A model generated the notes under the pieces. That model had not been told where the DNA came from. It made no database searches and worked only from the letters and a program-made list of their open reading frames with translations. From Ornithinimicrobium faecis (GTDB taxonomy: Bacteria > Actinomycetota > Actinomycetes > Actinomycetales > Dermatophilaceae), in the NCBI RefSeq assembly GCF_023923225.1, contig NZ_CP099489.1, forward strand, positions 3,286,001 through 3,350,000: a stretch of DNA of 64,000 bases. Reading direction: 5' to 3'. A program made the translations under genes and the position numbers. Below, piece after piece: positions 12,577 to 64,000 of the stretch. Position 1 is the stretch's first letter, and each line of letters starts with the position of its first letter.

Positions 12577-12629
12577 ACTCGCAGGTTCTGGCGTCGCGCC
12601 CACCCCGTGATGCGTTATCCACAGTGATG

Positions 12630-12815
12630 ATTGGAGCGCCGTCGTTACGCTCGATGGAAGTCCCGCCCGGCTGACCCGGTTATCCACTGGCTTTTGGTGC
12701 CTTTGGCCTGATCTGTCGCCGGGCGGGGCGCGCACCAGCCGGACGGAAGCGTGACCTGATAGGAGCCTGGCCTGGCCTCGTCACTGTGCTGTCCGCCCGA
12801 CCGGTGGTGCGTGTC
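12630..12815 (+). ncRNA. Predicted IS110 bridge RNA
   Basis: Three hairpins precede the transposase in the order known for IS110 bridge RNAs. A 5' stem-loop is GAGCG/CGCTC (12634-12652). The target loop is closed by a perfect 10-bp stem, CCCGCCCGGC/GCCGGGCGGG (12662-12671 with 12718-12727). The donor loop is closed by an 11-bp stem with one bulge (12731-12742 with 12801-12811). Guides match the DNA as follows: GTTATCCAC (12679-12687) is identical to the left flank at 12614-12622; GGCCTGAT (12705-12712) is complementary to 13946-13953; ATAGGAGC (12759-12766) is identical to the right end at 13938-13945; 12778-12788 is complementary to 12620-12630 with one G-U pair. Transcript ends are estimates. 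Confidence 0.8.
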
Positions 12816-12851
12816 CACCCAAACGGATTCGAGCCGGAAGGACACCAAACC

Positions 12852-13931
12852 ATGGTGACATCTATTGCAGTGATCGGCGGGATCGATACCCACGCTGACA
12901 CCCATGCCCTGGCCGTGATCGACAGTCGGGGCCAGTTGCTGGGCACCACCACCGTGCCGGCTACCGCAGCCGGGAACCGGCAGGCGCTTGCTTGGCTGGC
13001 CTCTCACGGCACCGTCCACAGCGTGGGCGTTGAGGGCACCGGGTCCTACGGTGCCCAACTCGCCCGGCACCTAACCGCCCACGATCTCAAAGTGATCGAG
13101 GTCGACCGCGCCGACCGCAAGACCCGGCGACGCAAGGGCAAGAGCGACCCGCTGGACGCCGAGGCTGCCGCTCGCGCCGTGCTCGCTGGCGTAGCCACGG
13201 GTGTGCCGAAGACCCGTACCGGGCCGGTGGAGTCGCTGCGTGCCCTCAAGGCGACGAAGCGGGCTGCGATGAAAGCGCAGGTCGCTGCCCGATCCGCCCT
13301 GGTCCAGATGGTCATCACCGCACCCCAGTCTGTGCGCGACCAACTCGACGGACTCAAGGGCACCGCACGGGTCGAGGCCTGCGCACGGTTGCGGCCCGAC
13401 CGAACCCTCCTGCACGACCCGGTCCACGCGGTCAAGCTCGCCCTGCGCCGCACTGCCCGCCGCTGCCAGGTGCTGGCCGAGGAGATCGCCGAACTGAACA
13501 CCGACATCGAAGCACTAGTCTCCTCCACCGCGCCCCGCTTGCTGGACGCCTTCGGCGTCGGAGCGGACACCGCTGCCCAGTTGCTCATCACCGCCGGCGA
13601 CAACCCCGAGCGGATCCGCTCCGAGGCATCCTTCGCCGCCCTATGCGGCGTCAGCCCGATCCCCGCCTCCTCCGGACGCACCGACCGCCACCGGCTCAAT
13701 CGTGGCGGAGACAGACTTGCCAACGAAGCGCTCTGGCGCATCGTCATGGTCCGCCTCAGCCACGACCCCAAGACGAAGGCCTACCTCGCCAGACGCAGTC
13801 AGCAAGGCCTCAGGAAACGCGAGATCATCCGTTGCCTCAAGCGCTACATCGTCCGCGAACTCCTACCCATCATCCGAGCCGAACTCTCCCCGGCCACCGA
13901 CAATCACAACCCACTTCACGAAGCGGCTTGA
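12852..13931 (+). CDS. IS110-family transposase (DEDD RuvC-like domain plus Tnp domain)
   Basis: The 359-residue recombinase directs RNA-guided transposition of its element. The RuvC-like domain carries Asp12, Glu61 (VGVEGTGSYG), Asp99 and Asp102 (KSDPLDAEAAARA), matching the DEDD tetrad. The C-terminal transposase domain (about 225-345) has the conserved Ser pair in the PASSGRT motif (273-274), expected to supply the catalytic serine, followed by HRLNRGGDRLAN. The ATG at 12852 is about 40 bases after the bridge-RNA fold. The frame is intact, so the copy may be active. The right end of the element is only 15 bp past the stop. Confidence 0.93.
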   Translation: MVTSIAVIGGIDTHADTHALAVIDSRGQLLGTTTVPATAAGNRQALAWLASHGTVHSVGVEGTGSYGAQLARHLTAHDLKVIEVDRADRKTRRRKGKSDPLDAEAAARAVLAGVATGVPKTRTGPVESLRALKATKRAAMKAQVAARSALVQMVITAPQSVRDQLDGLKGTARVEACARLRPDRTLLHDPVHAVKLALRRTARRCQVLAEEIAELNTDIEALVSSTAPRLLDAFGVGADTAAQLLITAGDNPERIRSEASFAALCGVSPIPASSGRTDRHRLNRGGDRLANEALWRIVMVRLSHDPKTKAYLARRSQQGLRKREIIRCLKRYIVRELLPIIRAELSPATDNHNPLHEAA

Positions 13932-13933
13932 CA
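13928..13933 (+). promoter_or_regulatory. Outward -35 (TTGACA) at the IS110 right end, possible junction promoter half
   Basis: A consensus TTGACA overlaps the transposase stop codon. If the element circularises with a single CA core, it lies 17 bp from GATGAT at 12626-12631 in the left end, giving a full promoter at the head of the bridge RNA. Junction promoters of this kind are known for IS110-type elements; here the pairing is inference. Confidence 0.5.
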
Positions 13934-14036
13934 AGACATAGGAGCATCAGGCCGGGACCGCCCTGTCCGTCGTCTGTGCCACCGTGGGGTCCGCACCTGC
14001 CGCGAGGGGCAGGGCATAAGCGAGGGAGGGGATCGT

Positions 14037-15233
14037 ATGTCGACAGCTGCGGCCGGTGCACACCGCACCGGCGACCTGGGACAGCGACTGGGGCACCTGA
14101 TCGAGCAGGCGTGGGACAACGGCTGGGAGCCGATGGACCTGCACCGCGTCGCCGTGCGCAACACCAAGCCTGCGGCGATCGCGCTCCTTGGCGACCTGAT
14201 CGCGGCCGACCTTGCACGCTATGCGGCACTGACGGTCGAAGAGCGTTGGCACGCTCAGCTGGACGAGATGGAAGCGTCTGTCTGGTGGCGCCCGGACGAG
14301 GACCCCGTGACAGCTCGCGCCAGGCTGGTCAAGGGTGGCTGGGCCGCCCTGCACCAGGCCGGCCGTGAGCTGGAGGCGTGGCTGCGCGGTCTGCCGGCGC
14401 TCGAGGTGATCGGGGCGCGTCCCGGCCGGGCGAGCGCCCGGAAGACCCCAGGCCCTGCGGTCGACGAACGACTCCTCGGCAAGGTCCGCCTGATGCTGGC
14501 CAAGGCCGAGTCGACCACCTTCCCCGAGGAGGCCGAGACCTTCACCGCCGCGGCACAGAAGCTGATGACCAGGCACAGCATCGACCGCGCCCTGCTGGAG
14601 CAGGGAAAGGACAGTCATGACGGACCCGCAGCGATCCGGGTCGGAGTGGACCGCCCCTATGAGTCGGCGCGGTTCCACCTGATCTCCGCCATCGCGACAG
14701 CCAACCGGTGCAAGGCGGTGTGGCAGAAAGGACTCGGGTTCAGCACGGTGGTCGGCTTCCCGACCGACCTGCGCGCTGTCGAGCTGCTGTTCACCTCGCT
14801 GATGGTCCAGGCCACGTCGGCCATGGCCGCGGCTGGGTCGCGCGAGCACTGGTCCGGGCAGAACCGCACCCGGTCGTTCCGCAACAGCTTCCTGACCGCC
14901 TTCGCGGTCCGGATCGGCGAGCGGCTGGACCTGGCAGCTCAGCAGGCCCAGCAGGAGGGTGAGCAGGAGCGGGCCGAGGTCGGGCACCTGGACCCCGGCG
15001 TCCCCGGAGGATCGGCGTCCCGGCTCAGCGACCCGCCGCGCAACGACCGCACGGCCCTGGTGCTCGCCGCGCGCGACAAGGAGGTGGAAGACGCCGTGGC
15101 AGAACGCTTTCCGCGTCTGCAGACCCAGCGCAGCCGAGCCACCCTCGACGCAGAGGGCTGGGTCTCCGGCACCACGGCCGCAGACCGGGCCGACCTGGGG
15201 GCGCCGGGCCGACTCGGCAGAACCGGCAGCTAG
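14037..15233 (+). CDS. DUF2786 domain-containing protein
   Basis: This 398-residue protein carries a DUF2786 motif at about residues 144-182 (LLGKVRLMLAKAESTTFPEEAETFTAAAQKLM, ending in RHSID), preceded by a 140-residue helical region and followed by an alpha/beta region with conserved Trp and Arg residues (EHWSGQNRTRSFRNSF near 283). The family is widespread in actinobacteria and phages; its biochemical function is not established. The ATG at 14037 follows a purine-rich GAGGGAGG site. It begins 90 bp after the IS110 right end and overlaps the convergent tetR gene by 4 bp. Confidence 0.8.
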   Translation: MSTAAAGAHRTGDLGQRLGHLIEQAWDNGWEPMDLHRVAVRNTKPAAIALLGDLIAADLARYAALTVEERWHAQLDEMEASVWWRPDEDPVTARARLVKGGWAALHQAGRELEAWLRGLPALEVIGARPGRASARKTPGPAVDERLLGKVRLMLAKAESTTFPEEAETFTAAAQKLMTRHSIDRALLEQGKDSHDGPAAIRVGVDRPYESARFHLISAIATANRCKAVWQKGLGFSTVVGFPTDLRAVELLFTSLMVQATSAMAAAGSREHWSGQNRTRSFRNSFLTAFAVRIGERLDLAAQQAQQEGEQERAEVGHLDPGVPGGSASRLSDPPRNDRTALVLAARDKEVEDAVAERFPRLQTQRSRATLDAEGWVSGTTAADRADLGAPGRLGRTGS

Positions 15234-63387: not shown

Positions 63388-64000
63388 TCAATCTGTGGAT
63401 AACGGGCGGCGCGCACGCACCAGCCAGCCGCGCCCCGGCGCATACGGCAGGTCCCCGACCTGCACGCCCTCGAACCCGGCCGCGACCAACGAGGACTCGA
63501 ACTCCTCCTGGGACCGGAAACGCAGCGTCGAGGCGGACACCACATCGCTCCCGCCCGGGAACTCGTTGTGCGCGGTGAAACTGACCAGCAGCGGGTCCTC
63601 GCGCACGTCGGTCACCTCCATCCACTCGGTCAACGGGCCCAGCCCGGGCACGTCCGTGGTCGCGCGCGTGCTCTCCGGGGTCCAGCCCTCCCACCCGCGC
63701 ACGGCCGGCACCCGGCTCTCGAAGGCCAGGTGCCCGCCAGGTCGCAGTGCCGCGTGGACCGCCTCGAGGGTCTGCGCCCAGGCATCATCGGTGAGGAAGA
63801 CCTGGGCGACGTTCGCCGTCATCGTGGCGAGGTCCACCTGCAGCGGCGGCAGCGCCGTGGCGTCACCGTGCACCCAGGTGACGTGCTCGGCATACTCCTT
63901 GCCCCGGGCCACGTCCAGGCTGGCACCCGCCGGGTCGACCCCAGTCACCTCGATCCCTCGCTGCGCCAGCAGTATGCCGAAGGTGCCGGTCCCGCAGCCG
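63388..64000 (-). CDS. SAM-dependent methyltransferase, 5' part missing
   Basis: The gene runs in from beyond the right edge, leaving about 204 C-terminal codons. A class I methyltransferase fold is clear: GCGTGTFGILLAQRGIEVTGVDPAG (SAM motif I; core GCGTGTFGILL), VHGDATALPPLQVDLATM and TLEAVHAALRPGGHLAFESR. The substrate-binding second half (GPLTEWMEVTDVRED) is of the methyltransferase_25 type. The codons for GIL in motif I use ATA inside the GGCATAC heptamer. The start cannot be placed. Confidence 0.88.
   Translation of the reverse strand, partial: GCGTGTFGILLAQRGIEVTGVDPAGASLDVARGKEYAEHVTWVHGDATALPPLQVDLATMTANVAQVFLTDDAWAQTLEAVHAALRPGGHLAFESRVPAVRGWEGWTPESTRATTDVPGLGPLTEWMEVTDVREDPLLVSFTAHNEFPGGSDVVSASTLRFRSQEEFESSLVAAGFEGVQVGDLPYAPGRGWLVRARRPLSTD

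Follow-up and report, generated by a model that had tools for sequence, protein, structure and literature searches.

The insertion sequence and its recombinase

The window (the whole 64,000-nucleotide stretch analysed here) carries an insertion sequence of the IS110 group, about 1.33 kb in length, on the forward strand at 12623-13948. A noncoding left end of 229 nt precedes its single gene, and the right end is 17 nt long. The features of the locus, with the flanking target sequences, are as follows.

12614-12622, forward: left target (flank), GTTATCCAC, identical to the left target guide and recognizable in empty-site orthologues
12623-12630, forward: start of the element, with the right-donor sequence AGTGATGA; AGTGA or a variant follows the left target in relatives
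12659-12827, forward: predicted bridge RNA, target-binding loop followed by donor-binding loop (model R1, fold and covariation)
12679-12687, forward: left target guide, GTTATCCAC, 9/9 with its own flank at 12614-12622
12705-12710, forward: right target guide, GGCCTG, pairing with CAGGCC at 13948-13953; weak when taken alone
12711-12712, forward: putative target-loop handshake guide, AT, for the right-end AT at 13946-13947 after strand exchange
12759-12766, forward: left donor guide, ATAGGAGC, the same sequence as 13938-13945
12778-12786, forward: right donor guide, TCGTCACTG, pairing with CAGTGATGA at 12622-12630 with one G-U
12787-12788, forward: putative donor-loop handshake guide, TG, which would pair with the left-target CA at 12620-12621 once strands are exchanged
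12852-13931, forward: IS110-family recombinase, 359 aa (NF033542, PF01548, PF02371 and PDB alignments)
13928-13933, forward: TTGACA, a -35-like box that overlaps the recombinase stop codon and in the circle would come to lie next to the left end
13938-13948, forward: right end and terminus of the element, left-donor sequence ATAGGAGCATC, from copies and relatives
13949-13953, forward: right target (flank), AGGCC, from orthologous empty sites
14037-15233: DUF2786 gene (Pfam), downstream of the right flank

The recombinase scores 157.4 bits against NF033542, for which the cut-off is 140, and is matched by both PF01548 and PF02371 (the DEDD RuvC-like and transposase_20 domains). Its best match in the PDB is ISCro4 (9t56; E 2.2e-7), and IS621 (8wt6) is found at E 2.7e-6, with the putative catalytic S274 aligning with the SG motif of 8wt6. 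Residues D12, E61, D99 and D102, placed by motif, are presumably the remaining catalytic residues. Protein families, loop order and guides all agree with the original prediction of an IS110 element with a bridge RNA before its transposase. As the element occurs in a single copy in its own 4.62-Mb genome, we infer its mobility from relatives; a megablast comparison returned no match to it on plasmids.

Ends and insertion site

Copies and relatives share the right end ATAGGAGCNTC and diverge directly after it whatever the target, as a comparison of targets demonstrates (a slash marks the junction): GTTRTCCAC/AGG in the window, GTTGTCCAC/AG in a sister element, GGCAAGRTC/GAACGC in L090 and L105, and TACGAC/AACGCG in L093. 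Matches to the DUF2786 gene occur in 12 of the 31 genus genomes, its own among them, and of the 11 orthologous loci elsewhere the five of at least 70% identity present an empty site, T(A/G)TCCAC/AG, which lies 67-91 nt before the start codon (88 in the window). The six orthologues at 44-56% identity present no forward T(A/G)TCCAC within 160 nt before the match, the site being present but inverted in one of them (L169). Window flanks joined at 13949 align better than flanks joined at 13946 with all five empty-site orthologues, the advantage amounting to only 2 points for L165. From the right-end divergence, the empty sites and the better alignment at 13949 it follows that the insertion target, as read from these sequences, is GTTATCCAC/AGGCC.

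On the left, the first bases after the target are AGTGA in 16 of the 31 loci with both ends placed and the variants TGTGAG, TGCGAG, GGTGATG or AGTAATG in the other 15, these loci having been picked by just such a pattern; the base just before the element is a C in 28 of the 31. The last C of the left target is common to target and donor, and CAG at 12622-12624 recurs at 13948-13950. The shared sequence, and with it the putative core, is CAG in this copy, and only C or less in the pairs L090/L105 and L093/L107.

Guides in the two loops

The four matches on which the original prediction was built are all exact and lie where it had placed them, and the order of target loop, donor loop and guides follows that of IS621; what had to be corrected is the right boundary and the guide lengths. 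The supposed right flank at 13946-13953 includes three nucleotides of the element (ATC, 13946-13948), so that the flank begins at 13949, and the supposed left end at 12620-12630 includes three target-derived nucleotides (12620-12622) within the right-donor match. The complementarities themselves are continuous: 12705-12712 is the reverse complement of 13946-13953 over 8 nt, and 12778-12788 is complementary to 12620-12630 with one G-U. Their overrun of 2-3 nt past the boundary is accounted for by handshake guides of 2 nt, an arrangement named by Hiraizumi et al. (PMC11208158). By this analogy the 8-nt right guide would fit as a 6-nt target guide followed by a 2-nt handshake guide, the match of the donor loop being extended likewise. 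The left donor guide match ends before the core, where ATAGGAGC is followed by CTG against ATC.

The strength of the matches was assessed with 20,000 dinucleotide-preserving shuffles of the loops at 12672-12720 and 12750-12800, stretches chosen after the matches had been seen. The left target guide (9/9) was equalled at a frequency of 0.0002, the left donor guide at 0.00005 and the right donor guide (8/9) at 0.0018, while the right target guide was equalled in 0.075 of shuffles at its corrected length of 6 nt and in 0.0065 at the 8 nt read earlier. All four guides together, with the 6-nt right guide, were reached in 0 of 20,000 shuffles, which bears out the earlier judgement that such matches are hard to get by chance, except that the right target guide alone is weak.

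Structure of the predicted bridge RNA

The leader at 12614-12855 folds better than all of 200 shuffles (z -3.36). RNAalifold, applied to 26 aligned leaders (alignment A2, picked by eye from 32 non-redundant rows), gave 19 pairs in five helices that surround both loops. In these stems 94.3% of cells are paired, compared with 30-51% when the strands are slid by 1-3 columns; 45 cells carry double changes against a shuffled mean of 13.4, and the covariation score is 0.304 against 0.141, all counted on the alignment that gave the structure, which favours it. Double changes occur at eight pairs, a number reached by 28 of 500 shuffles. Compensatory changes of the kind that the original prediction asked for are present in the stems.

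Model R1, built from this alignment, matches the window, itself one of the rows of the model, with 131 bits and as the sole match at E <= 0.01 within 64 kb. At the same threshold it finds 66 of 71 IS110 loci outside model building and none of 26 control loci, and 62 of the 66 matches lie directly upstream of the gene (the table being read by eye). Rfam returned nothing at gathering score in the leader, where two weak, unrelated matches have E values of 1.3 and 1.9.

Covariation of guides and flanks

The comparison of guides with flanks started from 110 loci (L003-L111 and the window), of which 39 were kept; 71 were left out, 60 for want of the exact ATAGGAGCNTC right end, seven for want of the exact TAGGAGC guide and four as too short. 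For eight of the 39 no left end was supported, which leaves 31 rows with both ends placed. Left ends in relatives were placed with the help of the donor match, so that the 31-row result is no independent test of the donor loop, and constancy of the donor guide ATAGGAGC cannot be claimed from rows chosen for carrying it.

Where the flank differs between relatives, the left target guide differs with it, the covariation of first loop and insertion site that the original prediction had called for. The guide agrees with its own flank at a mean of 7.8 of 9 positions, compared with 5.6 for swapped flanks. Agreement at 8 or more of the 9 positions is seen in 20 of the 31 rows, or in 15 of the 24 that are non-redundant, and in 5.2% of swapped pairs; the other 11 rows reach only 5-7. 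None of 30 swapped flanks gives the window guide its 9/9. The right guide reaches 7/7 in nine of the 39 rows, 6/7 in 15, the window included, and at most 5/7 in 15; three of 38 swaps are as good for the window, and in L083, L084 and L101 the best match lies at the edge of the scanned stretch, off its usual place. The first loop hence matches the target on both strands, with covariation that is clear for the left guide and weaker for the right. For the donor-loop handshake dinucleotide the fit to the target is exact in 23 of the 31 rows, nine of these with a dinucleotide other than the common TC, and the target-loop handshake, as placed by script, fits in 17 of 39. Among eight rows with a right end other than GCATC, a complementary target-loop handshake was found by script in L003 and L062 and by eye in L006, L007 and L063; inspection by eye found none in L019, L077 and L080.

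A sister element of the same genus, 80% identical, provides multiple insertions. Three full copies are found in one genome (G120) and one in another (G116), and in a fourth copy in G120 the protein match covers only residues 1-252, with the ends in place. Its left guide is GTTGTCCAC, where the window has GTTATCCAC. The same guides are not found at unrelated sites: all five copies lie at GTTGTCCAC with differing outer flanks, at CGCAGAAGTTGTCCAC followed on the right by AG (AGGGTC, AGCCCC, AGGCCC, AGGCTC and AGGCAG). The 16-mer CGCAGAAG, common to the left of all sister copies, was considered as part of the element and rejected, since the same 16-mer occurs at free sites in the genus. A second genus provides further examples: the window's own guide GTTATCCAC recurs on two contig ends of G100, each time at a separate TTATCCAC site, and in locus L148 of G105 guide and flank have both changed to GTTTCCCGC. 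Seven relatives (L090, L105, L093, L107, L088, L089 and L096) are apparently inserted in conserved codons of other transposase genes, read by eye as GK(V/I)ERF and YDNA-like.

The target motif

The target looks like a DnaA box, TTATCCACA being the high-affinity DnaA box of E. coli (PMC5043019), and this resemblance is the less expected part of the finding. TTRTCCACAG occurs at 45 genomic sites, compared with six for the reversed pattern. Two of the 45 lie in the dnaA-dnaN gap, both genes being confirmed by Pfam. Among the 30 of these 45 sites whose flanks were read, one free site (L182) has the perfect 14-nt target.

The extended form of the motif, CGCAGAAGTTRTCCAC, resembles a promoter motif, and the window's own site is without its CGCAGAA part. 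The 62 free exact CGCAGAAG sites were read with their flanks, and for 38 of them an ATG or GTG lies on the opposite strand at a distance of 47-49 nt, with A-N3-T, like a -10 box, in the columns between motif and start codon; it is this start codon spacing and these columns that suggest the promoter-like reading. In these loci (L115-L143 and L203-L242) the dispersed TGTGGAYAACTTCTGCG followed by A-N3-T and a start codon possibly marks the leaderless promoters of a regulon. Besides the DUF2786 protein of the window, seven proteins from such sites were compared with Pfam: they include a Ser/Thr kinase, a PQQ-repeat protein, an AbiEi-like protein (just under the cut-off) and two DUF559 proteins, and two gave no Pfam match. 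The window itself holds a second TTATCCACAG at 63393-63402 on the reverse strand; two copies occurred in none of 100 shuffles.

Tentatively, the elements of two genera may belong to a bridge-RNA clade whose left target guide corresponds to the host DnaA box (TTRTCCACA), and which might aim at a replication-initiator or promoter motif and so find conserved landing sites in each host, a broader reading that we put forward with some reserve. The literature searched on IS110, bridge RNA and DnaA yielded no prior description of a DnaA-box-like target of an IS110 element, and the available text of a report on such an element in Kocuria (PMC12500396) does not mention a DnaA-box target.

Discussion

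We are highly confident that the locus is an IS110-group insertion sequence consisting of a recombinase and an upstream bridge RNA, the loops of which would pair with the target and with the joined ends. The partner of the first loop would be GTTATCCAC/AGGCC, and that of the second the junction of the element's own ends, ATAGGAGCATC/AGTGATGA. By analogy with IS621, the element would leave as a circle, and the junction of its right and left ends would restore a promoter from which the RNA is made; circle and target would be held together by recombinase and RNA, top strands would be swapped next to the shared C, and the handshake guides would then pair with the recombined strands. In 48 of the 50 loci whose right end was located, TTGAC stands no more than 16 nt ahead of that end, and in the circle junction of this element GATGAT, 18 nt beyond the right-end TTGACA, makes a poor -10.

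It might instead be argued that the matches arose by chance in a GC-rich hairpin and that sites are selected by the protein alone, a reading to which the right target guide lends itself, both in the shuffles and in the relatives that match it poorly. The joint result of the shuffles and the covariation of the stems speak against it, and the stems together with the covariation of guides and flanks refute it in the main; we consider it very improbable. Scarcely more credible is the boundary as drawn earlier, by which the target would be GTTATCCAC/ATCAGGCC and the right target guide would be 8 nt long. GGCCTGAT is indeed complementary to ATCAGGCC over 8 nt, but relatives that use other targets carry ATC in their right end as well, and the triplet is absent from the five orthologous empty sites. 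Furthermore, GTTRTCCACATCAGG is found with at most one mismatch in only 3 of 31 genomes of the genus, at one site each, with three sites also for the reversed control, whereas CGCAGAAGTTRTCCAC, at the same tolerance, is present in 28 of the 31, its reversed controls giving none. The ends of relatives, the empty sites and these motif counts lead us to reject that boundary.

Decay of the element, with movement lost while ends and RNA still match, deserves more weight, given the single copy in its genome. The open 359-aa frame with the expected putative catalytic motifs, the match of all guides and the several copies of the sister element make it unlikely. A well-bounded element with empty sites, a sister and natural re-targeting makes the guide rules readable from sequence. 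If the target is truly a DnaA box, a mobile element would be reading the regulatory code of its host via a guide RNA.

The bridge-RNA mechanism is already known, such RNAs having been predicted in 85.7% of IS110 elements, a family said often to target repetitive elements (PMC11208160); the additions made here are this element, its small differences from IS621 and its DnaA-box-like target. With IS621 (PMC11208160, PMC11208158) it shares a DEDD-Ser recombinase, a bridge RNA encoded in the left end ahead of the gene, a target loop before the donor loop, four guides with (here putative) handshake guides, a -35 or -35-like box in the right end and a dispersed genomic target. It differs in its distant protein, in its donor ATAGGAGCATC/AGTGATGA, in a left donor guide match that stops before the terminal ATC, outside the core, and in a contiguous right donor guide of 9 nt, with both handshake guides fitting the product over 2 nt. 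The core is CT in IS621 and here a shared C (CAG in this copy), and the REP target of IS621 is replaced by a DnaA-box-like one. In vitro, recombination by IS621 became cleaner when its RNA was engineered to have fuller handshake pairing and a longer right guide (PMC11208158); as both handshake guides fit the product here, the element is a reasonable candidate for assay. ISCro4 (PDB 9t56), compared by its protein, is likewise an IS110 recombinase, of solved structure, but distant in sequence. The seekRNA of ISEc21 and IS1111-type elements (PMC11187229) resembles the RNA described here as an IS110-type noncoding RNA upstream of the gene that matches the target on both strands and has been re-programmed naturally from one relative to another. 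In members of the IS1111 group, however, the RNA usually lies downstream, with guides reversed and subterminal repeats (PMC11187229), whereas here it lies upstream and the right end, in which an IS1111 RNA would reside, is 17 nt long.
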